This document shows positions 8,231 through 23,478 of a DNA stretch of 64,000 nucleotides, in pieces. The position numbers were made by a program, and so were the translations under genes. Origin of the DNA: Aggregatilinea lenta (GTDB lineage Bacteria > Chloroflexota > Anaerolineae > Aggregatilineales > Aggregatilineaceae). The notes below the pieces were generated by a model. That model saw only the letters and a program-made list of their open reading frames with translations. It did not search any database and was not told the origin of the DNA. Each line of letters begins with the position of its first letter. Within the stretch, counting starts at the first letter, position 1. Where the stretch lies: positions 310,001 to 374,000 of the forward strand of contig NZ_BFCB01000002.1 in the NCBI RefSeq assembly GCF_003569045.1. The letters run 5' to 3'.

Positions 8231-8295
8231 TTGACGCGTTATTGACCCCCTGCGCGCGTTTCTTGACACGCAATTGACGCCCTTCCAGGTAGGAT
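8231..8295 (+). promoter_or_regulatory. Four-half-site operator and -10 for the first kdpDE unit
   Basis: TTGAC begins at 8231, 8242, 8263 and 8274 (spacings 11, 21 and 11), and a -10-like TAGGAT occupies 8290-8295. The 11-bp direct-repeat spacing and the 9-bp gap between the last heptamer and the -10 match the geometry of OmpR/PhoB-family class II promoters. The same layout recurs before kimA and before the usp-kdp operon. The predicted transcript starts near 8302, about 35 nt before the membrane-protein ATG. The regulator identity (KdpE) is inferred. Confidence 0.75.
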
Positions 8296-8336
8296 TCTAG
8301 GGTATGGACTCTAGATCTCACCTAGGCAGGAACACC

Positions 8337-8663
8337 ATGCAATCCTCTCGCCGTTACCGTTCGCACTGGCGCACAGCTCTCCTGGGTCTGATCGGGATCG
8401 GTGTGCTATGGGCCGAACACCAGGCCCACCTGAGCGGCGCGCAACACAAGCTGCTGCTGATCCTGCTCGTCGTCGTGTTTTATGTTGGGGCCGGACTGTG
8501 GACCGGAGCCAGCGCAGCGGCGGCATTCGGCGTGGAAACGCGCCGTTGCACCCTGGCGGCTGACTCAACCGTGACGCCACTTATCCGCGAGCAACCGGAA
8601 CTCGCAGTGCAGTTGTCGCAGCAGGTCCGCGCCGAGGTGCTGGACAATCCTGTGAGGCAGTGA
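8337..8663 (+). CDS. Small two-helix membrane protein preceding the KdpD-like kinase
   Basis: A 108-residue protein starting MQSSRRYRSHWRTALLGLIG, with an AGGA ribosome-binding site. It has a positively charged N-terminus, two hydrophobic segments (about 13-28 and 45-65, the latter KLLLILLVVVFYVGAGLW) and a soluble tail of about 40 residues ending ...VRAEVLDNPVRQ. It is the first gene after the four-half-site promoter, 103 bp before the kinase gene on the same strand, so co-transcription is likely. No family was recognised. A role linked to the sensor kinase is only suggested by position. Confidence 0.65.
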   Translation: MQSSRRYRSHWRTALLGLIGIGVLWAEHQAHLSGAQHKLLLILLVVVFYVGAGLWTGASAAAAFGVETRRCTLAADSTVTPLIREQPELAVQLSQQVRAEVLDNPVRQ

Positions 8664-8766
8664 AGGTTGCGCCAACCGCCCGGCGATCTGCTAAATCCGC
8701 GTCAATCGCGTATGATCCGGCTGCACGTGGAATCACTGGAGCAGCGAGCGCCTGGATCAGCCCGAT

Positions 8767-11439
8767 ATGGCCCACGACGCGGTCCAACCGCAGCCTCACG
8801 ATCAGTCTGAGCAACCCCAAACCGGGCACCCGGCGCGCGGCAAGCTCAAAATCTTCCTCGGGTACGCGGCGGGTGTGGGAAAGACCTACGCCATGCTCGA
8901 TGCTGCACGTCTGCGCCAGGACGAAGGCGTGGACGTGGTCATCGGGCAAGTCGAGACGCATGGCCGCGCCGAGGTCGAGGCGCTGACCCGAAGCCTGGAG
9001 ATGATCGCGCCGCGCACGATCGAGGGCGACGATGCGGGCGAGCTGGACCTCGACGCGGTGCTGGCCCGGCGACCCCAGTTGGTGTTGGTCGATAACCTGG
9101 CGCACACCAACGCACCGGGATCGCGCCACACGCGGCGGTTTCAGGACATCGAGGAGCTGCTGTCGGCAGGCATCGACGTTTACACCACGCTCAACATCCA
9201 ACATCTCGAAAGCCTGAACGATGTCGTGGCGCAGATCACCGGGCTGACCGTGCGCGAGACGGTTCCTGACCGGCTCATGGACGACGTGGACAGCATCGAG
9301 CTGATCGACCTGCCGCCCGACGAGCTGATCCGCCGCGTGCGCGAGGGCAAGGTCGCCCTACCCGCCTTCAACGGGCAGAGCGTGCCGGGTTTCTTCCGGC
9401 CCGGCAACCTGACCGCGCTGCGCGAACTGGCGCTGCGCCGGGCCGCCGCGCAGGTCGACGACGAGATGCGCGCCTACAAAAAGGCGCACGCGATCTTCTA
9501 TTCGTGGGCAGCGACCGACCGGCTGTTGGTGTGCATCAGCGCCAACCCACTCAGCGAGCGGCTGGTACGCGCCGGGCGGCGTCTCGCTGAGCAGGCCAAC
9601 GCGGAATGGTTCGTGGTCTACGTCGAGACGCCGCGAACAGCACACCTGTCGGATACGGAGCGTGACCGCATCGCGCGCACCCTGCGTCTGGCCGAAGAAC
9701 TCGGCGCGAGCACGGTGATCGTTCCCGGCCAGTCCGTGGCCGACTCGATCCTGCAATACGCCCGCGCGCACAACGTCACCAAGATCATCGTGGGCAAGTC
9801 GCTGGGTGCAGGCTGGCGTGACGCGCTGCGCCGCTCGGTCGTAGAGCGCATCATCCAGCACAGCGACGAAATCGACGTGTTCGTGATCAGCGCGCCCGCA
9901 GCACCGATCCCGCGCCTGCCGTACCTGCCGCCGCGCCTGCCCGATCTGCGCCATGCGTTGTACAGCGCCGGGCTGGTCGCACTGGTCACGCTGTTTGGCC
10001 AGTTCGTGCACCGGATCATCGAGCCGACCAATCTGGTGATGGTTTACCTGCTGGTGGTGGTCATCGCCGCGACACGCTGGGGGCGAGGACCGTCCCTGCT
10101 CGCGGCGGGGCTGAGCGTACTGGCGTTCGACTTCTTCATCGTGCCGCCCCGACTGACCCTGGCCGTCTCGGACGCACAGTACCTGCTCACCTTCGTCGGG
10201 CTGTTCGGCACCGGCATGGTCATCAGTACCCTGGCCGCGCGCGAGCGCGAGCAGATGGAAGCGGCCCAGCGCCGCGAAACGTACACCGCCGCCCTGTATG
10301 CACTCAGCCGCGACCTCGCCACGACCATCGATCTCGGCGTCATCGTCGAGGCGGCGATCAAGCACGTCAGCGACCTGTTCAACTGCGAGGTGGCAATCTT
10401 CCTGCCCGGTGACGAGGGGTTGGTCCTGGCCACCCACAGTCCGGATTTCACCGACGAGCCGCAGAGCGGCGCGGTCGCGGCATGGGTCTTCCAGCGCGGG
10501 CAGATGGCGGGCCACGGCACGGAAACGCTCAACACCGCGCGGGCGCGCTATCTGCCGCTAAAAACGGCGCAAAGCACATCGGGCGTGGTCAGCGTCCGGC
10601 TGAACGAAGCCGATCCGCCGCTCAACCCGGACCAGGAGCGGCTGCTGCAAGCGCTGCTCAGCCAGGCTGCGCTGGCCATTGAAGCGACGCAGCTCGCCCA
10701 GAACGCGCGGCAGGCGCAGCTTTTGCGCGAAACGGAAAAGCTGCAAACCGCGCTGCTGAACTCCGTCTCGCACAACCTGCGCACGCCGCTGGTATCGATC
10801 ACCGGGGCGCTGAGCAGCCTGCGCGACGACGCGGGGTTCCTCGACGAGACTGCGCAGCGCGAGCTGCTCGATACCGCGTGGGAAGAAGCCGAGCGCCTGA
10901 ACCATCTGGTGGGCAACCTGCTCAACATGACGCGGCTCGAAGCGGGCGCGATGCGGCTGGGCACAACGCTATGCGACGTGCAGGATCTGGTCGGCGTGAC
11001 GCTGGCCCAGATGAGCAATCGCCTGCGCCACCGGACGGTCAATGTTGACGTGCCGGGCAGTCTGCCGCCCATCTCCATCGATCTGGTGCTGGTCGCACAG
11101 GCGTTGGTCAATCTGGTGGACAACGCCATAAAGTACTCACCGCCGGACGCGCCGATCGAGATCCGCGCCTACGAAGCGGGGCCGGATGTACGAATTGACG
11201 TCAGCGACCACGGGCCGGGCATCCTGCCCGCCGATTTGAAGCACATCTTCGACAAGTTTTACCGCGTGCAGCGCCTGAGCGACGTCACCGGCAGCGGCCT
11301 GGGTCTGTCGATCAGCCAGGGTATCGTCGAGCTGCACAACGGGCGCATCTGGGCCACTAACCGCGAGAACGGCGGCGCACGCTTCACTATCGCGCTACCT
11401 GCCGCCAGCATCCACTCATCACAGGAGAACCAGCCATGA
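8767..11439 (+). CDS. kdpD: KdpD-like osmosensitive/K+-responsive sensor histidine kinase (first copy)
   Basis: An 890-residue protein with the full KdpD architecture. The N-terminal KdpD domain has Walker A GYAAGVGKTYAML (about residues 34-45) and LVDNLAHTNAPGSRH. Next come a universal-stress-like domain (about 245-370), a DUF4118 membrane block of four helices (about 385-490), a GAF-like region (about 510-640), a HisKA box SVSHNLRTPL with H669, and an HATPase with NLVDNAIKYSPP, DHGPGILP and GSGLGLSIS. It controls phosphorylation of KdpE-type regulators in response to K+ limitation or turgor. Its stop overlaps the regulator ATG by 4 bp. Unusually, no kdpFABC follows; the next gene is a KimA-type transporter. 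Confidence 0.93.
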   Translation: MAHDAVQPQPHDQSEQPQTGHPARGKLKIFLGYAAGVGKTYAMLDAARLRQDEGVDVVIGQVETHGRAEVEALTRSLEMIAPRTIEGDDAGELDLDAVLARRPQLVLVDNLAHTNAPGSRHTRRFQDIEELLSAGIDVYTTLNIQHLESLNDVVAQITGLTVRETVPDRLMDDVDSIELIDLPPDELIRRVREGKVALPAFNGQSVPGFFRPGNLTALRELALRRAAAQVDDEMRAYKKAHAIFYSWAATDRLLVCISANPLSERLVRAGRRLAEQANAEWFVVYVETPRTAHLSDTERDRIARTLRLAEELGASTVIVPGQSVADSILQYARAHNVTKIIVGKSLGAGWRDALRRSVVERIIQHSDEIDVFVISAPAAPIPRLPYLPPRLPDLRHALYSAGLVALVTLFGQFVHRIIEPTNLVMVYLLVVVIAATRWGRGPSLLAAGLSVLAFDFFIVPPRLTLAVSDAQYLLTFVGLFGTGMVISTLAAREREQMEAAQRRETYTAALYALSRDLATTIDLGVIVEAAIKHVSDLFNCEVAIFLPGDEGLVLATHSPDFTDEPQSGAVAAWVFQRGQMAGHGTETLNTARARYLPLKTAQSTSGVVSVRLNEADPPLNPDQERLLQALLSQAALAIEATQLAQNARQAQLLRETEKLQTALLNSVSHNLRTPLVSITGALSSLRDDAGFLDETAQRELLDTAWEEAERLNHLVGNLLNMTRLEAGAMRLGTTLCDVQDLVGVTLAQMSNRLRHRTVNVDVPGSLPPISIDLVLVAQALVNLVDNAIKYSPPDAPIEIRAYEAGPDVRIDVSDHGPGILPADLKHIFDKFYRVQRLSDVTGSGLGLSISQGIVELHNGRIWATNRENGGARFTIALPAASIHSSQENQP

Positions 11440-12131
11440 CCGAACCTGCCGTGCGCGTGCTGATTGTGGACGACGACCAGGCGATCCGGCGCTTTCTGCG
11501 CACCTCGCTTGGCGCGCACAACTACGCCACGTTTGAGGCCGCTACGGGGCAGGAAGCGCTCGAAGCCGTCATCGCGGACAAGCCCGACGTGCTGATCCTC
11601 GACCTGGGGCTGCCCGACATGGATGGACTGGAAGTCACGCGTAAGCTGCGCGAATGGTCGCACCTGCCGATCATCATCCTATCCGTGCGCGAGCACGAAG
11701 ACGACAAGATCGCCGCGCTGGACGCAGGCGCGGACGATTATTTGACCAAGCCGTTCGGCGTCGGCGAGCTGTTGGCGCGGCTGCGCGTCGCGCTGCGCCA
11801 TGCCAGCACGCCTGCCGAAGAGGAAGCTGTGTTCACGCAGGGCGATCTGCTGGTGGATCTCGCGCGGCGCATCGTCAAGGTGGACGGGCGCGAGGTGCAG
11901 CTCACCCCGACCGAATACTCGCTGCTGCGCGTGCTGGTAGCGCACGCGGGCAAGGTCCTCACCCATCACCAACTGCTGCGTGAGGTATGGGGGCCGGGTT
12001 ACGAGGACGAAAGCCACCTGCTGCGCGTCAACATCAGCAACCTGCGCGGCAAGCTCGAAGCCGAACCCGCCCGCCCGCAGCACATCCTCACCGAACCGGG
12101 CGTCGGCTACCGCTTCCGCGCCAGCAGCTAG
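11436..12131 (+). CDS. kdpE: KdpE-like OmpR-family response regulator (first copy)
   Basis: A 231-residue protein. The receiver domain has VDDDQAIRRFLRTSL, the phospho-acceptor aspartate in LILDLGLPDMDGLEV, and the conserved lysine in DYLTKPFG. The C-terminal winged helix has LTPTEYSLLRVLVAHAGKVL and VNISNLRGKLEAEPARPQHI, ending EPGVGYRF. It is translationally coupled to the kinase (ATGA overlap). OmpR-family regulators bind tandem direct repeats of about 11 bp, which is what is found upstream of this operon and of kimA, so autoregulation and control of kimA are likely. Confidence 0.93.
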   Translation: MTEPAVRVLIVDDDQAIRRFLRTSLGAHNYATFEAATGQEALEAVIADKPDVLILDLGLPDMDGLEVTRKLREWSHLPIIILSVREHEDDKIAALDAGADDYLTKPFGVGELLARLRVALRHASTPAEEEAVFTQGDLLVDLARRIVKVDGREVQLTPTEYSLLRVLVAHAGKVLTHHQLLREVWGPGYEDESHLLRVNISNLRGKLEAEPARPQHILTEPGVGYRFRASS

Positions 12132-12154
12132 CGGTCCGCCTGCGCCGGATAAAA

Positions 12155-12219
12155 TTGACACTTTCTTGATGCGCATGCGCCCCATCTTGATATTCCCTTG
12201 ACCCCTCACATGGGATAAT
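12155..12219 (+). promoter_or_regulatory. Four-half-site operator and -10 for kimA
   Basis: TTGAC/TTGAT half-sites begin at 12155, 12166, 12187 and 12198 (spacings 11, 21, 11), with GATAAT at 12214-12219. Each position matches the promoter at 8231-8295 exactly in spacing, although the spacer sequences differ. The predicted start near 12226 gives a leader of about 138 nt before the kimA ATG. No consensus -35 is needed if an activator occupies the half-sites. Confidence 0.78.
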
Positions 12220-12363: not shown

Positions 12364-14349
12364 ATGGCATCGCTTGATGCTCAACAGAAGGCCCATTTTT
12401 CCCTGTCTCGCTGGCTAATCGGTAAGCCGCTGGAAACCACCGCACTGCCCCATCAAGTCATCACACGACCGATCGGGCTGGCGGTGTTCGCCTCGGACGC
12501 GCTGTCGTCCACGGCCTACGCCACCGAAGAAATCCTGATTATCCTGGCGCTGGCCGGGACCGGGGCGGCGACACTCGGCCTCTCGATCCCGATCGCTTTC
12601 GCGATTGCCGCGCTGTTGATTATCGTCACCATCTCGTACCGCCAGACGATCTACGCCTACCCGAACGGCGGCGGCGCGTACATCGTCGCGCGTGATAACC
12701 TGGGCGAGCTGCCTGCGCAGATTGCGGGCGCGGCCCTGCTGACGGACTACATCCTGACCGTAGCGGTCAGTGTCTCATCCGGCGTGGCGCAGATTACGTC
12801 CGGATTCCCAGAGCTGTTCCCGTACAAGGTTTACATGGCGATTGGCGTGATCGTGCTGATGACCATCGTCAATCTGCGCGGCGTCAAGGAGAGTGGGCGC
12901 ATCTTCGCCGTGCCGACCTATTTCTTCCTGGGCACGATGTTCCTGACGCTTGGCGTCGGCTTCGTGCGCTACCTGCTCGGCGATCTACCCACCGTTGTCG
13001 ACGTCGAGGTCGTACACAACTCAACCCAGGCGCTGGGGCTGTTCCTGGTCCTGCGCGCGTTCTCCAGCGGCTGCGCGGCCCTGACCGGTATCGAGGCGAT
13101 CTCGAACGGCATCACGGCCTTCAAAGAACCGCGCAGCCATAACGCCGCCGTGACGCTGGTCTGGATGAGCGCTCTACTCATCTCGCTGTTCCTGGGTATT
13201 ACCCTGATCGCGCACCAGATCCACGCCATGCCGAGCGAAACCGAAACAGTGATCTCGCAGTTGGGGCGCACGATTTACGGCCAGGGCAGCATCTTCTACA
13301 TGATGACGCTGGCCGGGACCGCGCTGATCCTGCTCATGGCCGCCAACACCAGCTACGCGGACTTCCCGCGCCTCGCCGCCCTGCACGCGGGCGATGGCTT
13401 CCTGCCGCGCCAGCTCACCTATCGCGGCAGCCGCCTGGTGTTCTCGTGGGGCATTTTGGGGCTGGCGTCCTGCGCCTCGCTGCTGGTGCTCGTCGCCCAG
13501 GCCAGCACCACCCGGTTGATTCCGCTGTATGCCATCGGCGTGTTCCTGAGCTTCACCATGTCGCAGACGGGCATGGTGGTCCGCCTGCGCAAGATCGGCA
13601 AGCTGAAGCCGGGTGAAGAGGTGCAGGGCCGTGAAACGGTCATGCGTTACGATCCGCACTGGCGGCTGAAGAGCTTCATCAGCGGCTTCGGCGCGCTTTG
13701 CACCGGCGTGGTGATGATCGTCTTCGCGGTGACCAAGTTCACCACCGGCGCGTGGTTCGTGATCGTTCTGATCCCGACGCTGGTGTTTGTCTTCTTCCGC
13801 ATTCACTATCATTACCGTGACGTGGCCCGCTCGTTGAGCCTGGAAGGCAAGCCGGTCGAGGTCGAAAAGCGGCCCGTGCAGACGATCATCCTGGTGGATG
13901 ACGTGCACGCCGAGACGGTGCGGCTGGTGGACTTCGCCAAGTCGCTCGACCACCCGTGGCACGCGATTCACATCGCGGTTAACCCGGACAAAGTGGACAG
14001 CATCCGCGAGAAGTGGGAGAAGCGCGTCGGCGAAGGCGAGCTGGTCATCGTCCCATCGCCCTATCGCCTGCTGGCCGAGCCGCTGCGCCAGTACATCGAA
14101 GATTTGCAGGAACAGACGCCGGGCAGCTACGTGCACATCATCATGGGCCACCTGGCGATGGACACCTTCTGGGAGCAGGCGCTGCACCAGAACAGCGCCG
14201 TGATGTTCAATCTGGCGCTGGGCCGGATGGAGCGCGTCGGCGTGACGAGCGTGCCGTACCAGATCCACCGCAACCACAAAAGCGAACACGCGGTTGAAGC
14301 GGCTGAGGCCGTGCTCGACGAGCTTGAGGCCGATACGGTAGAGGTGTAG
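12364..14349 (+). CDS. kimA: KimA-type (APC superfamily) potassium transporter
   Basis: A 661-residue protein with about twelve membrane helices up to residue 480 and a cytoplasmic C-terminal domain of about 180 residues. Sequence landmarks match Bacillus KimA/YdaO as remembered: RWLIGKPLETTALPHQ at the start, ASDALSSTAYATEEILIILA, YRQTIYAYPNGGGAYIV, FSSGCAALTGIEAISNGITA and IPLYAIGVFLSFTMSQTGM. The tail (VQTIILVDDVHAETVRLVDF) is universal-stress-like, as in KimA. KimA is a high-affinity K+/H+ symporter. Its position after a KdpDE pair and a shared operator support a K+ role. An in-family alternative would be another APC permease. Confidence 0.85.
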   Translation: MASLDAQQKAHFSLSRWLIGKPLETTALPHQVITRPIGLAVFASDALSSTAYATEEILIILALAGTGAATLGLSIPIAFAIAALLIIVTISYRQTIYAYPNGGGAYIVARDNLGELPAQIAGAALLTDYILTVAVSVSSGVAQITSGFPELFPYKVYMAIGVIVLMTIVNLRGVKESGRIFAVPTYFFLGTMFLTLGVGFVRYLLGDLPTVVDVEVVHNSTQALGLFLVLRAFSSGCAALTGIEAISNGITAFKEPRSHNAAVTLVWMSALLISLFLGITLIAHQIHAMPSETETVISQLGRTIYGQGSIFYMMTLAGTALILLMAANTSYADFPRLAALHAGDGFLPRQLTYRGSRLVFSWGILGLASCASLLVLVAQASTTRLIPLYAIGVFLSFTMSQTGMVVRLRKIGKLKPGEEVQGRETVMRYDPHWRLKSFISGFGALCTGVVMIVFAVTKFTTGAWFVIVLIPTLVFVFFRIHYHYRDVARSLSLEGKPVEVEKRPVQTIILVDDVHAETVRLVDFAKSLDHPWHAIHIAVNPDKVDSIREKWEKRVGEGELVIVPSPYRLLAEPLRQYIEDLQEQTPGSYVHIIMGHLAMDTFWEQALHQNSAVMFNLALGRMERVGVTSVPYQIHRNHKSEHAVEAAEAVLDELEADTVEV

Positions 14350-14592: not shown

Positions 14593-15309
14593 TCACTCGA
14601 CCTTCAGGCGATACCCCACGCCTGGCTCGGTTAACAGGTAGCGCGGGCGGGTCGGATCGGCTTCGATCTTATGGCGAAGCTGCCCCATGTAAACGCGCAG
14701 ATAGTGGCTCTCGTTCGCGTACGAAGGACCCCAGACTTCGCTGAGGAGCTGGCGATGGGTCACGACGCGGCCCGCATAGCGGACCAACGTGGTCAGAAGT
14801 TTGTATTCGAGCGGCGTGAGGTGCACTTCGACACCCTGTATGCTGACATGGCGACGCGCCAGATCCACCCGCAAATCGCCGACCTCAAAGGTCGCTTCCT
14901 CGCTGCCCTGCGCGTGGAACGAATGCCGCAGCGCGACACGAATACGGGCGAGCAGCTCGCTCGTGCCGAACGGCTTCGTCAGGTAATCGTCCGCTCCCGC
15001 ATCCAGCGCCGCGACCTTGTCGTGTTCCTGCTCCCGCGCCGACACGACGATCACAGGGGTCGAGGACCATTCGCGCAGCCGCCGCATGACTTCCAGGCCA
15101 TCCAGATCGGGCAGTCCCAGATCCAGAATGATCACGTCCGGCGCGTGCAGCGCTGCCTTGTTGATCCCGTCTGCCGCCGTTGCCGTTTCCAAAATGCGAT
15201 AGCCGTTGCTGGTGAGCGTGGTACGCAAGAACCGCCGAATCTGCACATCGTCTTCGATGACCAGAATCAGCGTATTTTGCTCAGAAGCAGATCCAGAAGC
15301 GTCACTCAT
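14593..15309 (-). CDS. kdpE: KdpE response regulator (second copy, kdp operon)
   Basis: A 238-residue OmpR-family regulator beginning MSDASGSASEQNTLILVIED. The receiver has VIEDDVQIRRFLRTTL, phospho-acceptor aspartate in VIILDLGLPDLDGLEV, and lysine in DYLTKPFG. The DNA-binding winged helix ends in EPGVGYRLKVE. The start at 15309 overlaps the kdpD stop by 8 bp, giving translational coupling; the longer upstream frame is a shadow of kdpD. It is the last gene of the leftward operon and points towards kimA, convergent with it. It is clearly paralogous to the regulator at 11436, with nearly identical receiver motifs. Confidence 0.93.
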   Translation of the reverse strand: MSDASGSASEQNTLILVIEDDVQIRRFLRTTLTSNGYRILETATAADGINKAALHAPDVIILDLGLPDLDGLEVMRRLREWSSTPVIVVSAREQEHDKVAALDAGADDYLTKPFGTSELLARIRVALRHSFHAQGSEEATFEVGDLRVDLARRHVSIQGVEVHLTPLEYKLLTTLVRYAGRVVTHRQLLSEVWGPSYANESHYLRVYMGQLRHKIEADPTRPRYLLTEPGVGYRLKVE

Positions 15310-17989
15310 CGTCTGTAACAACCTCCGGTGGCTCGCCGTCCAACGGCAGCGTGAAGCGGAACACCGCCCCGCCATCAGGGCGATTCTCGGCCCAGATACG
15401 CCCGCCGTGAATTTCGACGATTCCCCGGCAAATCGCCAGTCCCAGCCCGGCGCCGCGCGTTGCGGCAGGCTGCGCGCGATAAAACTTGTCGAAGATACGC
15501 TGCTCGTCTCCGGCCCGGAGTCCCGGTCCGTGATCGGCAATTTCAACCAACACGCCCCCCTCTATGCGCCGCGCAGAGAGATCGATGGGAGAGCCAGGCG
15601 GCGTATATTTGACCGCATTATCGAGCAGGTTGACCAACACCTGATCGATCAGGGTGCTGTCGAACGGCACGAGCGGCAGATCGTCGGGCAGCGTAACTGA
15701 CACACTCCGGCCCGCCAGCCGTTTCTCCAGCCGGTTCAGCGTCGCGCCGATGACTTCTTCCAGGAGCTGCCATTCCTTGTTGACGTGGATACCGCCCGAT
15801 TGCAAACGCGTCATGTCGAGCAAATTGCTGACCAGCCGGTTCAGTCGCTCGGCCTCTTCGTAGGTCACCTGTGCCAGCTCATGGCGACTTTCAGGCGTCA
15901 ACGTCGCATCATTTTCGAGCAGGCTGCTCGCCGCCCCGGTGATCACCGCCAGCGGCGTGCGCAGATCGTGCGAGACCGAACTTAACAGCGAGTTACGCAG
16001 CCGCTCCGTCTCGATCTGCATGTGCGCCTGTTCCGCTTCCTCGGCCAACTGCGCGCGCTCCACGGCCAGCGAGGTCTGGTTGGCGAACGTCTCGACCAGA
16101 TGCATTTGATCGGGTGAAAACAAACGCTGCGCCTGGTTGGGGAAAATACCGATCACGCCCGCCGTGCCCTGCAGCGTGCGCAGCGGCAGGTACAGCCCCT
16201 GTGCGCCGGGCAGCGCCTGGGTTCCCAACCCGGCAGCCTGTCCATGATCATACACCCACCGGGCAACGCCCTGCTCGTGTACCGTCAGCCCAGCGGCGCT
16301 TTCGGGGACGTGAATGCTCAGATTCCCCTGCGCATCCGGCAGCACCACCACGGCGCGGCTGTCGAACACCTCGCTGATATGCTGCGCGGCAATCGCGGCC
16401 AGGGTCGCGGTGCCCTGGCTGTTCGCTAAATCGCGGCTCATGGCGTAGAGATTGGCCGTGTGGCGTTCCCGCTCGCGCGCGGCCTCGGCCTGCTGTTTGA
16501 TGCGTACCGTCAGCGTGCTGATCGTCATGCCGACGAGCAGCATGATGATGAACGTCACGATGTACTGGCTGTCGGACACGGCAAAAGTCAGGTAAGGCGT
16601 GACGAAGAAGAAGTCGAACGCCAGTACGCTCAGCAGCGCGGCCAGCATCGACGGTCCGCGCCCATAACGCGCCGCCGCGAAGACCACACCAACCAGATAG
16701 ACCATGATCAGGTTGGCGAGGTCGAAGTAGGGCAGCATCAAGCGCGCGAGCAGGGTGCACAGAACGAACACGAGCAGGGTATTGGCGTAGGCCCGCCAGC
16801 CGCTGGTGCGCCGCAGCATCTGGATGGGCAATGTCGAACGAGCGGGATCAGGATCGCCGCTGATGACGTAAATATCGATCTTCTCGCTGTGGCGCACCAA
16901 TTCGTCCAGCACCGACCCAAACACGATATCGCGCCAGCGCGGGTGAGAAGGTTTGCCGACGATGATCTTGCTGACGTTGCGCTCATGCGCGTAGGCCAGC
17001 AGCTCCTGGCTCACATTGTGACCGAACCGGATCGCGGTTTCCGCCCCCAACTGCTCCGCGAGGCGCAACGTCTGGATCGCCCGGTCGCGATCCTTTTCCG
17101 GCAGCCGCGCATGGGACGGCGTCTCGATGTACACGGCCAGCCACTCGGCGCGCAGGCCACTCGCCATCCGTTTAGCCGCCCGTACCAGCCGCCGCGAGAG
17201 TGGGCTGGGACTGATGCTGACCAGGATACGTTCGGCGGCGGGCCACGTCTGTTTCACCGCATGATCGCGCCGGTAGTCCTGCATCTGCTCGTCCACCCGG
17301 TCGGCGGTGCGACGCAGGGCCAGTTCGCGCAGGGCCATCAGGTTGCCCTTGCGGAAGAAGTTCTGCATGGCGCGCTCCGCCTGCCCTGGGACATACACCT
17401 TGCCCTCTTTGAGGCGTTGAAGCAGATCATCAGGCGCAAGATCGACCATTTCCACTTCGTCGGCCTGTTCCAGCAGGGAGTCCGGGATCGTCTCGCGCAC
17501 GACGACGCCGGTAATCTGGCTCACGATATCGGTCAGGCTTTCGAGGTGCTGGACGTTGACGGTGGTGTAAACATTGATACCCGCCGCAAGCAGCTCCTCG
17601 ACGTCCTGATACCGTTTCGGGTGCCGCATCCCTGGCGCATTGGTATGGGCCAGCTCGTCTACCAGGATCAGTTGCGGATGCCGCGCGATGGCCGCGTCCA
17701 GATCGAACTCACGCAGCGCAGCACCCTGGTAGTCCACGAGGCGCGACGGAATCGCTTCCAGGCCGTGCAACAGCGCTTCCGTCTCGGCCCGCCCGTGCGG
17801 CTCGATGTAGCCCACCACGACGTCGATGCCCTCCGCCTGGCGCATGTGCGCCGCGTCGAGCATGCTGTACGTCTTGCCGACACCCGCCGTCGCGCCGAAG
17901 AAGATCTTCAGTTTTCCCCGGCGCTCCCGGTTCTCGTCGGCGCGGAGGCGCGCCAGGATCGCATCCGGATCGGGCCGCTGTTCGTCCAT
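15302..17989 (-). CDS. kdpD: KdpD sensor histidine kinase (second copy, kdp operon)
   Basis: An 895-residue protein. The KdpD domain has Walker A GATAGVGKTYSML and LVDELAHTNAPGMRHPKRYQ. It continues with a universal-stress domain (SKIIVGKPSHPRWRD), four membrane helices (DUF4118; LMLPYFDLANLIMVYLVGVV), a GAF-like region, a HisKA box SVSHDLRTPLAVITGA and an HATPase with NLLDNAVKYTPPGSP, DHGPGLRAG and GAGLGLAICRGIVEIHGG. It lies 80 bp downstream of kdpC. The start MDEQRPDPD at 17989 is chosen because AAGGA lies 11 bp before it; MTPFMDEQ at 18001 is an alternative. It senses K+ limitation and acts on KdpE. Confidence 0.93.
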   Translation of the reverse strand: MDEQRPDPDAILARLRADENRERRGKLKIFFGATAGVGKTYSMLDAAHMRQAEGIDVVVGYIEPHGRAETEALLHGLEAIPSRLVDYQGAALREFDLDAAIARHPQLILVDELAHTNAPGMRHPKRYQDVEELLAAGINVYTTVNVQHLESLTDIVSQITGVVVRETIPDSLLEQADEVEMVDLAPDDLLQRLKEGKVYVPGQAERAMQNFFRKGNLMALRELALRRTADRVDEQMQDYRRDHAVKQTWPAAERILVSISPSPLSRRLVRAAKRMASGLRAEWLAVYIETPSHARLPEKDRDRAIQTLRLAEQLGAETAIRFGHNVSQELLAYAHERNVSKIIVGKPSHPRWRDIVFGSVLDELVRHSEKIDIYVISGDPDPARSTLPIQMLRRTSGWRAYANTLLVFVLCTLLARLMLPYFDLANLIMVYLVGVVFAAARYGRGPSMLAALLSVLAFDFFFVTPYLTFAVSDSQYIVTFIIMLLVGMTISTLTVRIKQQAEAARERERHTANLYAMSRDLANSQGTATLAAIAAQHISEVFDSRAVVVLPDAQGNLSIHVPESAAGLTVHEQGVARWVYDHGQAAGLGTQALPGAQGLYLPLRTLQGTAGVIGIFPNQAQRLFSPDQMHLVETFANQTSLAVERAQLAEEAEQAHMQIETERLRNSLLSSVSHDLRTPLAVITGAASSLLENDATLTPESRHELAQVTYEEAERLNRLVSNLLDMTRLQSGGIHVNKEWQLLEEVIGATLNRLEKRLAGRSVSVTLPDDLPLVPFDSTLIDQVLVNLLDNAVKYTPPGSPIDLSARRIEGGVLVEIADHGPGLRAGDEQRIFDKFYRAQPAATRGAGLGLAICRGIVEIHGGRIWAENRPDGGAVFRFTLPLDGEPPEVVTDDE

Positions 17990-18069
17990 GAATGGAGTCA
18001 TCCTTATACCGCGTTTGGCACGATCATAGCGCAAAACCCATAACTCAAATACGGCGCGTTACGATGCGG

Positions 18070-18675
18070 TTAATCCAGTGCGTCCAGGGCCAGGTTCAGT
18101 TCCAGCACGTTGACGCGCGGCTCGCCCAGCACCCCCAGCCAACGATCCTCGGTGTGATCGTTGACCAGGGCAATCACCGCCGCCTCGTCCAGGCCGCGCG
18201 CGCGGGCCACGCGCGAAACCTGATAGAGCGCTGCCGCCGGGCTGATATGCGGATCGAGGCCGCTGGCGGAGGCCGTCACCAGATCGACCGGGACGGGCGC
18301 GGTGTTCGCGGGGTCGGTGGCCTGCAGCGCGTCGATGCGCGCCTGAACCGCGTCCAGCAAAGCGGGATTAAGCGGGCCGAAGTTCGAGCCAGACGAGGCC
18401 GCCGCGTTGTACGGTTCCGGGCCGGTCGCGGAGAGCCGCCCCCAGAAGTAGGCCGGATCGTCGAACGATTGGCCGATCAGCTCGGAACCGATGGCCTGCC
18501 CATCGCGCACGATCAGGCCGCCGTTGGCCTTACCGGGGAAGATCGCCTGTGCGATTCCGGTGATAATTAGCGGGTAGATCACCCCGGTGAGCAGTGTCAG
18601 CAGCGCTAACAGTACCAGCGCCGGACGCAGCGCGTTCCACAGCCCAGCAGCGCGTGATTTCGTGATATGCTCCAT
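18070..18675 (-). CDS. kdpC: KdpC, K+-transporting ATPase subunit C
   Basis: A 201-residue protein with one N-terminal membrane helix ([21 protein letters not shown]) and a periplasmic/extracellular-side domain. Family landmarks are [65 protein letters not shown] and [16 protein letters not shown]. KdpC stabilises the KdpFABC complex and raises its K+ affinity. [10 protein letters not shown] at 18675 is chosen because GGGAGGGGGAG precedes it. The gap to the kdpB stop is 13 bp. Confidence 0.96.
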
Positions 18676-18688
18676 TTCTCCCCCTCCC

Positions 18689-20767
18689 CTACACCAATCC
18701 AAGCGCGGCCAGCAGCAGATCGATCAGCTTGATCCCGATGAACGGCACGATCAGCCCACCCAGGCCATACACCAGCAGGTTGTTGCGCAGCAGCGTCGAC
18801 GCCCCCACCGGGCGGTAGCGCACGCCGCGCAGCGCCAGCGGGATCAGGACGATGATGATCAGCGCGTTGAAGATTACGGCGGACAGGATCGCGCTTTGCG
18901 GCGTGGTCAGGTCCATCACGTTGAGGCGATCCAGCGCGGGGTACGTGCTGGCGAAGGCCGCCGGGATGATGGCGAAGTACTTCGAGACGTCGTTGGCGAT
19001 GCTGAACGTGGTCAGCGCGCCGCGCGTCATCAAAAGCTGCTTGCCGATCTCTACGATCTCGATCAGCTTGGTCGGGTTGGAGTCGAGATCGATCATGTTC
19101 CCGGCTTCCTTCGCGGCCTGCGTGCCGGTGTTCATCGCTACGGCGACGTCCGCCTGAGCCAGCGCGGGCGCGTCGTTCGTGCCGTCGCCCGTCATGGCAA
19201 CCAAGCGTCCCCCGGCCTGGCTGTCGCGGATCAGCTTCAGTTTGGCTTCGGGCGTGGCCTGCGCCAGAAAATCATCGACGCCCGCCTCCGCCGCGATGGC
19301 CGCTGCCGTCAGCGGGTTGTCGCCCGTGATCATGACGGTTTTGATGCCCATGCGGCGCAGTTCCGCGAAGCGTTCCGCAATCCCGCCCTTGACGATGTCC
19401 TTGAGCTGGATCACGCCCAGCACGCGCGGGCCGTCGGCCACCACGAGCGGCGTCGCGCCCTGCGTGGCGATGTCGTCCACCAGCATGCGCACAGCGGAGG
19501 GGAAGGGGCTGCCCTGTTCCTCGACGAACGCCTGGATCGCGTCGGCGGCTCCCTTGCGGATGCAGCGACCGTCCATATCGATGCCGCTCATGCGCGTCTG
19601 GGCCGTGAAGGGCACGAACGCCGCGCCGAGGGCGTGCACGTCGCGCTCGCGCAGGCCGTATTTCTCCTTCGCCAGCACGACGATGCTGCGGCCTTCGGGC
19701 GTCTCGTCGGCCAGTGACGCCAACTGCGCGGCATCGGCCAGCACGTCGGGACTGATCCCCTGCACCGGGAAGAAGGCGGTCGCCTGGCGGTTGCCGAGCG
19801 TGATCGTGCCGGTCTTGTCCAGCAGCAGCACGTCCACGTCTCCGGCGGCTTCGACCGCACGCCCGGACATAGCGATCACGTTGGCCTGGATCATGCGGTC
19901 CATGCCCGCGATGCCGATGGCCGACAGCAGCCCGCCGATGGTCGTCGGGATCAGACACACCAGCAGCGCGACGAGCACCGTCACCGTGACCGGCTCGCCC
20001 TGCCCGGCGGCGTCCACGCTGTAGATCGAAAACGGCAGCAGGGTCGCGGCGGCCAGCAGGAAGACGATCGTCAGCGCGGCCAGCAGGATATTCAGCGCGA
20101 TCTCGTTGGGCGTCTTCTGGCGCTTGGCGCCTTCGACCATCGAAATCATGTGATCCAGAAACGTCTCGCCGGGGTTGGCCTCGATCTGCACCACCAGCCA
20201 GTCGGACAGCACGCGCGTGCCGCCCGTGACGGCGCTGCGGTCGCCACCGCTCTCGCGGATGACCGGGGCGCTTTCGCCCGTGATCGCGCTCTCGTCCACC
20301 GACGCCACGCCCTTGAGCACGTTGCCGTCGCTGGGAATGATATCACCCGCTTCGACCAGCACCACGTCCCCCTTGCGCAGCGCGGTCGAGGGCACGATGT
20401 GGTATTCCGCCGCATGATCCGGGCGGGTGAGCTTCTTGGCGCTGGTGTCCTGGCGGGAGCGGCGCAGAGCGTCGGCCTGGGCCTTGCCGCGCCCCTCGGC
20501 CATCGCCTCGGCGAAGTTGGCGAACAGCACCGTGAACCACAGCCACGCGGACACGGCCAGGATGAAGCCGGGCGCGGCCTCGCCCTCGTCCACCAACGCC
20601 TGCAGGAACAGGGCCGTGGTCACCACACTGCCGACCTCGACGACGAACATCACCGGGTTTTTGAACTGGTGGCGCGGGTCGAGCTTGCGCCCGGCCTCCA
20701 CCGCCGCCCGCCTGACAATCGGCGGATCGAACAGCGGGCGCGCCTGAGCTTTCGTTTGTACGGTCAT
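18689..20767 (-). CDS. kdpB: KdpB, P-type K+-transporting ATPase catalytic subunit
   Basis: A 692-residue type IA P-type ATPase. The phosphorylation loop is [16 protein letters not shown], the A-domain motif [17 protein letters not shown], and the hinge [17 protein letters not shown], with [20 protein letters not shown] and [18 protein letters not shown] in the membrane core. It couples ATP hydrolysis to K+ movement through KdpA/KdpB. An ATG directly after the kdpA stop (20794) would add nine residues but lacks a ribosome-binding site; MTVQTKAQ at 20767 has GAGGA upstream. All catalytic motifs are intact. Confidence 0.97.
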
Positions 20768-20794
20768 GGATGTTTTTAGATCCTCAAGCCCCAT

Positions 20795-22537
20795 TTACAG
20801 GGCCATCTGCAACTGCTCGACGATGGGGCCAAGCGCCAGCGCCGGGATGAACGCCAGCGCGCCCACGATGATCACGATGCCGATCAGCAGCACGACGAAC
20901 AACGGCGTGTGCGTGGGCAGCGTGCCCGCGCCCGCCGGAGCGGACTTCTTGCGCGCCAGCGACCCGGCCAGCGCCAGGATGGGTACGATGATCCAGTAGC
21001 GCGCCAGCAGCATGGCGATGCCCAGCGCCGTGTTGTAGAACGGCGTATTGGCGCCCAGCCCGGCGAACGCGCTGCCGTTGTTGTTCCCGGCGGAGGTGAA
21101 GGCATAGAGCGCCTCGCTGAAGCCGTGCGCGCCGGGGTTGTAGATCGTCGCCCTGCCGCCATCCGTGACCAACGCAATCGCCGTGCCGACCAGCACGATC
21201 AGCGGCATGATCAGAATGATGATCGAGACCATCTTCATCTCGTAGGCTTCGATCTTCTTGCCCAGGTATTCCGGCGTGCGGCCCACCATCAGGCCCGCCA
21301 CGAACACCGCGACGATCACGAAGGCCAGCATGCCGTACAGGCCCGACCCCACGCCGCCGAAGATAGTCTCTCCCATATGCATCATGAACAGCGGCACGAG
21401 GCCGCCCAGCGGCGTAAACGAATCGTGCATCGCGTTGACCGAGCCGTTCGAGGCGGCAGTGGTGGCTGTCGCCCACAGCGCGGAGTTCGCCACGCCGAAG
21501 CGCAGCTCTTTGCCTTCCATGTTGCCGCCGGGATTGGCGTCGCTGGCGGTTTGATCGACGCCCAGCGCCGCGATGCGCGGGTTGCCGTGCGCCTCGGCGG
21601 CGTAGGCGGCGAGCGTAAAACCGACCAGCACGATCAGCATCGCGGCGAAGATCGCCCAGCCCTGCCGCGTATCGCCCACCATCTTGCCAAAGGTGTAGCA
21701 TAGGGCCGCCGGAATCAGCAGGATCGACAGTGACTCCAGGAAGTTAGTGAGCGGCGTGGGATTCTCGAACGGGTGCGACGAATTGACGTTGAAGAAGCCG
21801 CCGCCGTTGGTCCCCAACTGCTTGATGGCGATTTGCGACGCCGCCGGACCGAGTGCGATCTGCTGCGTGGTGACGGGGATCCCGTCTGCGCCGGTCACCG
21901 GCTGCACGAGGTCGACCGTCGCGGCGTGGTCGAAGGTCTGCACGACACCCTGCGAGATCAGGATCACGGCCAGGACAACCGACAGCGGCAGCAGGATATA
22001 CAGCGTGCTACGCGTCATATCCACCCAGAAGTTGCCGATGGTCGCGGCGGAGCGGCGCACGATGCCCCGGATCAACGCGACGAGCACGGCCATGCCGGTG
22101 GCTGCCGAGACGAAGTTCTGTACCGTCAGCCCGATCATCTGCGTGAGATAGCTCATGGTCGTCTCGCCGCCGTAACCCTGCCAGTTGGTGTTGCTGGTGA
22201 AGCTGATCGCGGTATTGAACGACGAATCGGACGAGACGCCCGGCAGATCCTGCGGGTTGAGCGGCAGCGCGCCTTGCAGCCGCTGGAGCGCGTAGAGCAC
22301 GAGCAGGCCAGCCGCGTTAAACACCAGCACGGCCAGCGCGTAGCCCTTCCAGCTCATTTCGCGCTCCGGGTGCACGCCGCCCAGATGGTAGAACAGGCGC
22401 TCCGCTGGCCCAAGTACACGGTCCAGCGGGGTCGATTGGCCCTCGTAGACGCGCGCCATGTAGCTGCCCAGCGGCTTGACTGCCAGCGCGAGTACCACGA
22501 TATACAGGCCGATCTGAAGCAGGCCGTTGGCGGTCAT
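20795..22537 (-). CDS. kdpA: KdpA, K+-binding/translocating subunit
   Basis: A 580-residue, ten-helix protein starting MTANGLLQIGLYIVVLALAV, with family landmarks KPLGSYMARVYEG, FNTAISFTSNTNWQGYGGE, QLGTNGGGFFNVNSSHPFEN, FMMHMGETIFGGVGSGLYGM and FTSAGNNNGSAFAGL. These contain the four pseudo-repeat selectivity-filter regions of the SKT superfamily (for example SNTNWQGYGG and GTNGGGFF). Its ATG overlaps the kdpF stop (TGATG). It is the K+ entry pathway of the Kdp complex in the membrane. Confidence 0.97.
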   Translation of the reverse strand: MTANGLLQIGLYIVVLALAVKPLGSYMARVYEGQSTPLDRVLGPAERLFYHLGGVHPEREMSWKGYALAVLVFNAAGLLVLYALQRLQGALPLNPQDLPGVSSDSSFNTAISFTSNTNWQGYGGETTMSYLTQMIGLTVQNFVSAATGMAVLVALIRGIVRRSAATIGNFWVDMTRSTLYILLPLSVVLAVILISQGVVQTFDHAATVDLVQPVTGADGIPVTTQQIALGPAASQIAIKQLGTNGGGFFNVNSSHPFENPTPLTNFLESLSILLIPAALCYTFGKMVGDTRQGWAIFAAMLIVLVGFTLAAYAAEAHGNPRIAALGVDQTASDANPGGNMEGKELRFGVANSALWATATTAASNGSVNAMHDSFTPLGGLVPLFMMHMGETIFGGVGSGLYGMLAFVIVAVFVAGLMVGRTPEYLGKKIEAYEMKMVSIIILIMPLIVLVGTAIALVTDGGRATIYNPGAHGFSEALYAFTSAGNNNGSAFAGLGANTPFYNTALGIAMLLARYWIIVPILALAGSLARKKSAPAGAGTLPTHTPLFVVLLIGIVIIVGALAFIPALALGPIVEQLQMAL

Positions 22538-22626
22538 CAAAACACCTCCGGCTTGAGCAGCGCCACGACCAGATACAACAGCAGCATGAGGGCGATCAAG
22601 CCCACGATCACATACAGCAGCGACAT
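22537..22626 (-). CDS. kdpF: KdpF, small stabilising subunit
   Basis: A 29-residue single-helix peptide (MSLLYVIVGLIALMLLLYLV, then VALLKPEVF) located immediately before kdpA, with an overlapping TGATG stop/start. KdpF is the lipid-like accessory subunit of KdpFABC, and both the LLKPE tail and the position are diagnostic. A GGAGGG ribosome-binding site lies within the last codons of the preceding small ORF, so the two are translationally linked. Confidence 0.92.
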   Translation of the reverse strand: MSLLYVIVGLIALMLLLYLVVALLKPEVF

Positions 22627-22777: not shown

Positions 22778-23278
22778 TCAGTGATGGGCCGCCAGCGAAC
22801 GCGCGGGGCTGTCGGATGCCGAGCGGTCCGGCCTGCACGCGAGGTCCTGTGGGAAGGGGAACTGCTCGACAAGAGCGCAGCCCATCTGCGCCAGGCGGCG
22901 GCGTAGAAGCCGTGCTTGAAGTGCGGACCAGCGGGGAATGAGGCTCGGCGGCAGGTGCACGCATACGGTCTGCGCGCCGACCGCGCCAGCCGCCTCGACG
23001 ATGGCGGGCATGAAGTCGCTGTACTGCATTTCATACAGCGCAACCGGCACGCCGTACCCCTCCGCGATCTGCGTATAGTCGCGCAGATCGCACTGGAACT
23101 GCGATGAAAGCTGGCGGTAGGGCAGATCCGTCCCCAGCCAGCTCAGGCGCTGCGCCGGGATCAATGCAACCAGCGCGATGCCAGCCTGCATTTCACGGGC
23201 CAGCACACACGCGGCATGCAGTGCCTCCGCAGTCCACATTCTTTCCTCGACAACGACCATAATGGTTTGAGCGGCCAT
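22778..23278 (-). CDS. Universal-stress-like protein, first gene of kdp operon
   Basis: A 166-residue protein beginning MAAQTIMVVVEERMWTAEAL. It shows the alternating beta/alpha pattern of the USP/HUP fold: a first strand, a helix ALHAACVLAREMQ, a strand IALVALIPAQ, and a later helix/strand pair AIVEAAGAVGAQTVCVHLPP. The glycine-rich nucleotide-binding loop of ATP-binding USPs is not obvious. It is 57 bp upstream of the 29-aa ORF on the same strand and downstream of the third copy of the potassium operator, so it is probably co-transcribed with kdpFABCDE. A role in tuning Kdp is suggested by position only; KdpD itself contains a USP domain. Confidence 0.7.
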   Translation of the reverse strand: MAAQTIMVVVEERMWTAEALHAACVLAREMQAGIALVALIPAQRLSWLGTDLPYRQLSSQFQCDLRDYTQIAEGYGVPVALYEMQYSDFMPAIVEAAGAVGAQTVCVHLPPSLIPRWSALQARLLRRRLAQMGCALVEQFPFPQDLACRPDRSASDSPARSLAAHH

Positions 23279-23361: not shown

Positions 23362-23426
23362 ATTGTAATGAGGAAACGATAAGGGAAAGCTCAGGATTGA
23401 GGCGAAAGAGGTCAAAAATGTATCAA
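23362..23426 (-). promoter_or_regulatory. Promoter/operator of usp-kdpFABCDE, third copy of the potassium architecture
   Basis: On the minus strand TTGAT begins at 23426 and TTGAC at 23415 (spacing 11). The positions expected for the proximal pair (23394, 23383) hold the degenerate CTGAG and CTTAT, and TACAAT begins at 23367. The offset from first half-site to -10 is 59 bp, the same as at 8231 and 12155. The predicted transcript starts near 23355, about 77 nt before the usp ATG. Confidence 0.65.
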
Positions 23427-23439
23427 GGTCAGCGTGCCG

Positions 23440-23478
23440 CGAAACAACAGCGACCCGCTGGTCAGTCCAGCGGGTCGC
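23440..23478 (-). terminator. Probable rho-independent terminator downstream of the 80-aa ORF
   Basis: A perfect 12-bp stem (GCGACCCGCTGG with CCAGCGGGTCGC) and 5-nt loop at 23450-23478, followed in the leftward direction by TGTTGTTT. It would end leftward transcription from the 80-residue gene, just before the kdp promoter. Confidence 0.7.

Follow-up and report, generated by a model that had tools for sequence, protein, structure and literature searches.

A recurrent layout of four half-sites before kdp and kimA genes in Aggregatilinea lenta and other bacteria, a likely KdpE-dependent promoter of potassium genes

Three sites among the kdp and kimA genes

The window analysed here is a stretch of 64,000 nucleotides from the genome of Aggregatilinea lenta, and its features are collected in Table 1. 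Two complete KdpD/KdpE pairs (8767-12131 and 14593-18034) are oriented towards each other on either side of kimA, and the recognition helices of their regulators differ. The product of the gene between the pairs, which we take to be a KimA-like importer, has no NCBIfam match; the 166-aa ORF has neither a Pfam nor an NCBIfam match, and no Pfam family was found for the small ORF behind site 1. A search of the window for a leader RNA element of kimA gave no Rfam match at gathering level. Two further kimA-like genes lie elsewhere in the genome, one of them (L386, C3:2422355-2424250) 76% identical, and neither is preceded by the layout described below (best scores -30.1 and -35.1).

Table 1. Sites and genes of the locus, with positions counted in the window
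Feature	Position	Strand	Remarks
Site 1	8231..8278	+	half-sites TTGAC at 8231, 8242, 8263 and 8274; precedes ORF 8304-8663 and kdpD1E1
-10 of site 1	8290..8295	+	TAGGAT; offset +59, kept in relatives
Small ORF between site 1 and kdpD1	8304..8663	+	alternative start 8337; hydrophobic stretches by eye
kdpD1, sensor kinase	8767..11439	+	Pfam KdpD, Usp, DUF4118, HisKA, HATPase
kdpE1, response regulator	11436..12131	+	helix LLRVNISNLR, N at E. coli position 198
Site 2	12155..12202	+	half-sites at 12155, 12166, 12187 and 12198; precedes kimA
-10 of site 2	12214..12219	+	GATAAT; offset +59
kimA, presumed potassium importer	12364..14349	+	Pfam AA_permease_2
kdpE2	14593..15309	-	helix YLRVYMGQLR (Q198); putative start
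kdpD2	15302..18034	-	assigned by Pfam
kdpC, kdpB, kdpA	18070..22540	-	assigned by Pfam
166-aa ORF	22778..23278	-	first gene past site 3, heads the kdpFABC operon; "usp-like" is an impression only
-10 of site 3	23362..23367	-	TACAAT; offset +59
Site 3	23379..23426	-	TTGAT 23426, TTGAC 23415, CTGAG 23394, CTTAT 23383; precedes the usp-like/kdpFABC operon

In sites 1 and 2, half-sites of the form TTGAY begin at offsets 0, 11, 32 and 43 and a -10 hexamer begins at +59, that is, 16 bp past the start of the last half-site and 11 bp past its end. A preliminary description of this DNA had reported the eight half-sites, the two -10-like hexamers, the 11-21-11 spacing and the 16-bp step to the -10, all of which are present in the sequence as described. 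It had also proposed dimers "21 bp (two turns) apart", which has to be corrected, as 21 bp is the step between the inner half-sites, and the two half-site pairs are 32 bp, or three turns, apart from start to start and from centre to centre.

The pair TTGAYN6TTGAY occurs five times in the window, with 0.13 expected, and the fifth occurrence (23411-23426, minus strand) is part of site 3, whose proximal half-sites are degenerate. When the window sites were left out of the profile described below, site 3 scored 30.7 against a maximum of -19.5 among 400 background segments. TTGTT at 23447 had also been considered as the upstream half-site of the kdpFABC promoter, and was dropped, the profile register starting at 23426 and running downstream. 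The layout precedes the kdpD1E1 unit, kimA and the kdpFABC operon.

The full pattern has two matches in the window, both free of mismatches, and 100 shuffles gave none with up to three mismatches. Sites 1 and 2 are the sole complete sites in the 6.2-Mb genome; with up to three mismatches allowed, the whole genome yields one extra match, which is site 2 read in an overlapping register, and one match to the backward control pattern. By itself, the half-site pair is unremarkable across the genome, matching 21 times where the backward control matches 14 times. A sequence-only profile model, trained on 40 rows that include sites 1 and 2 and not site 3 (six of the 46 instances introduced below were omitted from its alignment), puts sites 1, 2 and 3 at ranks 1, 2 and 3 in the genome, with E-values of 1.5e-11, 1.0e-8 and 0.136, respectively, in this own-genome search. 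The layout in the window is confirmed as real and lies far above chance.

Occurrence of the layout in the class and the order

A search of 298 class genomes with up to two mismatches gave 121 matches to the pattern, as against 24 to the backward pattern. The layout recurs before kdp and kimA genes in related genomes: among the 35 class matches with no more than one mismatch that lie outside this genome, found without use of the -10, 27 have a kdp or kimA gene downstream (at least 40% identical, on the same strand and within 3 kb; median distance 252 bp), namely KdpA in 14 cases, KimA in seven, KdpE in three, KdpD in two and KdpB in one. Eight lack such a gene, one of them lying at a contig end and another having kdpD at 3.2 kb. 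Two features that were not part of the search pattern are also shared by the 35 matches. TANNNT stands exactly at +59 in 24 of them (mean over the other offsets from 49 to 99, 0.44), and TTTC leads half-site 2 (per base 30, 31, 33 and 28 of 35) and, less strictly, half-site 3 (20, 24, 29 and 26 of 35). GACAAT, CATAAT and GATAAT, i.e. -10 hexamers of the type of site 2, are found at +59 in genomes of the same order.

A larger set of 46 instances, which includes both complete window sites, agrees with these counts. It draws on 40 regions, of which 31 cover every match with zero or one mismatch outside this genome and the other nine (L085-L093) are two-mismatch matches chosen by eye for their resemblance to the emerging consensus; matches in L065, L067, L079 and L080, where tblastn gave no potassium gene, are omitted. 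Since its letter counts are partly selected, the figures relied on are those of the 35 unselected matches. The scoring profile was made from the 46 instances, leaving out the scored genome for kdpA and kimA regions of the class and this genome for regions of the phylum.

kdpA is present in 22 of 150 class genomes. When kdpA upstream regions were drawn regardless of the motif, and the profile for each was made without its own genome, 19 of the 21 scorable regions scored above zero and the other two scored -8.2 and -20.3; L096 (153 bp of upstream DNA), L117 (a second copy) and L118 (a fragment) are omitted from this count. Two of the 19 positive sites, site 3 of the window and that of G146, lie about 0.9 kb from kdpA. 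A match to the model with an E-value of at most 0.001 was found in 17 of the 22 genomes with kdpA and in 6 of the 128 without it, the two sets being matched by genome handle and the 199 model-searched genomes being taken to include the 150.

The preliminary description had also raised the possibility that the layout is absent before the orthologous operons of close relatives, which is not the case. Within the same order, kdpA and KdpD are confined to the same five of 20 genomes, each of which has the site upstream of kdpA (scores of 45.2 in G055, 53.5 in G107, 18.2 in G146, 51.6 in G242 and 25.6 in G270). The closest relative compared, G232 of the same family, has no site and provides no test, because neither kdpA nor KdpD was found in it at the cut-offs used. 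Six two-mismatch matches in same-order genomes that lack kdpA (two in G083, one each in G019, G127, G222 and G262) are probably due to chance. The relatives G035, G114 and G067 show no clear fourth half-site, and in family f26 the spacing is off by 1 bp.

For kimA, which has a match in 80 of the 150 class genomes, upstream regions were scored at 30 loci, two of them with less than 320 bp of upstream DNA. Eight of these 30 listed loci exceed the background maximum (background segments were 700 bp long and scored upstream regions up to 1400 bp): seven of the 15 with KdpD/KdpE in the locus and one of the 15 without. Sites in the class were also seen before genes for a KdpB-like ATPase, a ClC channel with a TrkA_C domain, a permease with Usp domains and a sodium/calcium exchanger (L062, L063, L060, L388).

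The KdpE regulators and the layout in other lineages

KdpE (NF007820) is the best NCBIfam model for both regulators of the window, whose scores of 282.4 bits (KdpE1) and 299.3 bits (KdpE2) stay below its curated cut-off of 325. The closest solved structure to KdpE1 is that of KdpE, 4kny, and among 30 genomes KdpE1 is 71% identical to the KdpE of the L237 genome and at most 64% identical to the rest. R193 and R200, which are required for DNA binding by E. coli KdpE according to the accessible part of PMC3264566, are kept in KdpE1 and KdpE2.

Residue 198 of KdpE varies together with base 3 of the upstream half-sites. Among 30 loci listed of the 35 with a match, from 36 genomes of the pan-genome set searched, with the best KdpE taken per genome and KdpD in the locus in 29 of the 30, 11 of the 13 whose KdpE has H198 show TTTA at half-sites 1 and 2 (one TTGA, one mixed), whereas 13 of the 17 whose KdpE has N, Q or E198 show TTGA (two TTTA, two mixed). 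The association between residue and base over the unmixed cases has a Fisher p of 6.9e-5, a statistic that ignores shared ancestry; per half-site, with kinship likewise ignored, p is 1.7e-5, 0.0025, 0.26 and 0.057 for half-sites 1 to 4. In loci holding both a site and KdpE, N or Q198 mostly pairs with TTGA, the exception being L271 (Q198, TTTA). The window follows the same rule, with N198 in KdpE1, Q198 in KdpE2 and TTGA at the start of all three sites. This covariation ties the element to KdpE, and KdpE1 or KdpE2 is the candidate binder of the window sites.

The layout is not confined to the class. Upstream of kdpF in E. coli K-12 we read TTTAT N6 TTTAC N16 TTTGC N6 TTTGC N11 TACCCT, with the same offsets (0, 11, 32, 43 and 59) as in the window, and in other lineages the half-site word at these offsets is TTTAY. 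In the phylum, where KdpA was found in 56 of 201 genomes, 13 of 24 further kdpA upstream regions among the 30 loci listed score above zero and 11 are without the layout; L151, with 187 bp of upstream DNA, and five loci counted before with the class are left out of this set. A named set of 17 kdpA regions comprises E. coli and 16 of the 60 plasmid matches listed, out of 461 plasmid kdpA records. Six of the 17 (E. coli, Enterobacter, Duffyella, Cupriavidus, Mycetohabitans and Proteus, the last with one half-site displaced by 1 bp) combine TANNNT at +59 with half-site words that can be recognised, though imperfect, at each of the four offsets, two (Azospirillum and Paracoccus) fit in part, and nine lack the layout. 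In the class of an Enterobacter, kdpA occurs in 9 of 94 genomes, and of eight scorable regions six exceed all 200 shuffles, one is borderline and one is without the layout. Many kdpA promoters of other lineages do not have the layout.

When promoters were selected on the upstream pair only, 44 of 63 kdpA promoters had a good pair. In these 44, a second pair scores highest on average at +32 (z 5.3; 25 of 44), and TANNNT is most frequent at +59 (17 of 44, as against a mean of 0.6 per offset). Of these two peaks, the phylum subset taken by itself shows the one at +32 and not the one at +59.

An exact scan of public genomes for the layout gave at least 116 stretches, 80 of which are listed as loci. 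Among the 82 matches listed, 54 lie within 1.5 kb before KdpA (42), KimA (9) or KdpD (3), and the 28 that do not stand before kdpA, kimA or kdpD include contig ends, AT-rich sequences resembling chance and candidate new targets. Burkholderia and its close kin make up 20 of the 80 loci listed, which also represent relatives of Geobacter, Nitrosomonas, Bdellovibrionales, Myxococcales, Planctomycetota, Acidobacteria, Nitrospirae, Clostridia and Chloroflexota. Plausible predicted targets are Kup (L244), PtsN (L210), a porin (L200), a glutamine-synthetase-like gene of three Enterobacteriaceae (L229, L232, L239) and, in L263, a protein that resembles P-II at a score below the Pfam cut-off. The layout stands directly before the PtsN-like gene in L210:2761-3385; PtsN acts on KdpD in E. 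coli. The porin-like gene (BBP2) preceded by the layout at L200:3923 is from Nitrosomonas and has kdpE upstream in the locus, and a Nitrosospira ORF at L263:7312 resembles it by eye. In L229, L232 and L239 (Enterobacter, Phytobacter) the glutamine-synthetase-like gene lies directly past a strict four-half-site promoter. The next ORF in L229 resembles trehalose-phosphate synthase by eye, and no E. coli genome has most of the L239 stretch at the DNA level. As kdpFABC is the sole known target of E. coli KdpE in what we have of PMC7657598, the wider targets are predictions for other organisms.

A probable KdpE-activated promoter module and its alternatives

The preliminary description had attributed control of the kdpDE unit and kimA to a KdpE-like regulator. 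That attribution is strongly supported by the layout before kdp and kimA genes elsewhere and by the covariation with the recognition helix at half-sites 1 and 2; the site of the kdpFABC operon and the wider distribution, E. coli included, had been missed. We consider it likely that the element is a KdpE-activated promoter module of the potassium regulon that lacks a -35 box and accommodates two KdpE dimers. Upon potassium shortage, KdpD would phosphorylate KdpE, and a KdpE dimer would bind half-sites 1 and 2, at about -71 to -56 from the presumed start, the position of KdpE in E. coli. A second dimer on half-sites 3 and 4, at about -39 to -24, would take the place of the -35, on the same face of the DNA as the first (32 bp, three turns), and would help RNA polymerase to use the -10 that begins 16 bp past the start of the last half-site; both ranges assume a start 7 bp past the -10 hexamer. 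The module would thus drive the small ORF with kdpD1E1, kimA, and the usp-like ORF with kdpFABC (probably together with D2E2). Binding by two dimers, with KdpE on half-sites 3 and 4, is what we infer, and cooperativity between the dimers, the transcription start and induction at low potassium are to be read as predicted parts of this scheme.

The best-studied counterpart is the KdpE site of E. coli kdpFABC, where, in the part of PMC3264566 at hand, the footprint spans -72 to -50 and covers half-sites TTTATA and TTTACA, 11 bp apart. It shares with the window sites the 11-bp pair, its position relative to the -10 (about -71 to -56 here, if the start is 7 bp past the -10) and, in all likelihood, the regulator. 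The upstream pairs 8231/8242, 12155/12166 and 23426/23415 fit this KdpE-type pair, with G instead of T as base 3. On the other hand, two half-sites are described there and four are found here, and the E. coli sequence itself carries the two further words at matching offsets, as TTTGC. In the KdpE and kdp-promoter literature as partly accessible to us (including PMC3264566, PMC5458449, PMC7657598 and PMC5716572, the original footprint papers lying outside the search) we found no report of a second half-site pair, and within those texts only the upstream pair of the E. coli kdp promoter appears to be described as a KdpE site. In D. radiodurans, too, a response regulator activates kdp when potassium is limiting; according to PMC5716572 (seen in part), it shares only 23.9% identity with the KdpE of E. 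coli. The layout was not found in a scan upstream of kdpA in that genome, where kdpB lies ahead of kdpA.

For the proximal pair, the closest working analogy is PhoB: in a structural model, its dimer lies over the -35 region and contacts sigma and alpha (PMC3348028, from the portion seen). In both cases a direct-repeat pair would replace the -35 close upstream of the -10. The pho box differs in its half-site (TGTCA, as given in the accessible text of PMC3264566, versus TTGAY here), in its regulator and regulon, and in that a second pair lies here 32 bp upstream of the proximal one.

Whether the proximal pair is read by KdpE is the point on which the main alternative turns. It is possible, though we favour it less, that only half-sites 1 and 2 bind KdpE and that half-sites 3 and 4 are kept for region 4 of sigma, for RNA polymerase or for DNA bending. 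The covariation with residue 198 is significant at half-sites 1 and 2 only, and since it is weak at half-sites 3 and 4 the proximal pair is perhaps not read by KdpE in the same way; the known E. coli footprint is likewise restricted to half-sites 1 and 2 in the available text of PMC3264566, and site 3 and several relatives have degenerate words in the proximal pair. Against this, many lineages carry TTKAY again in the proximal pair, with the 11-bp spacing unchanged, and half-site 3 keeps much of the TTTC lead of half-site 2.

We think it improbable that a regulator of the OmpR/PhoB family other than KdpE reads the sites. Many members of this family use direct repeats of about 11 bp, and both window regulators fall under the curated KdpE cut-off; yet the KdpE model remains the best for both, the targets are mostly potassium genes, and the covariation concerns the helix of KdpE. 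Ordinary sigma-70 -35 boxes of overlapping promoters are a still poorer explanation of the TTGAC words, even though the -35 consensus begins with TTGAC. It was rejected on spacing, since such boxes would stand 10 or 21 bp away from the -10, where an ordinary sigma-70 promoter has a spacer of about 17 bp, and the same offsets carry TTTAY in other lineages. No -35 fits, because offsets 36-41, where a 17-bp spacer would put it, are C-rich in the 46-instance set. Finally, chance or recent duplication of one promoter segment, suggested by two full sites only 4 kb apart, is refuted by their differing spacer sequences, the empty shuffles and the recurrence of the layout in many genomes of the class and the public collections, so that the preliminary view of a shared geometry that is not simple duplication holds.

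Returning to the module with two KdpE dimers, we lean, with modest confidence, towards a broader reading in which the four-half-site promoter would be the ancestral KdpE promoter across many phyla, with two tandem dimers three turns apart, with a second KdpE site replacing the -35 that has gone unnoticed in E. coli kdpFABC (TTTGC-N6-TTTGC), and with targets beyond kdp such as kimA, kup, ptsN, ClC-type channels and the glutamine-synthetase-like gene. A repeat seen in one window would then become a readable promoter code for the potassium regulons of many lineages, with a fixed geometry, predicted targets and a base-to-residue rule linking residue 198 of KdpE to base 3 of the half-site, and it may expose the apparently undescribed second half of a textbook two-component promoter, that of E. 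coli kdp.
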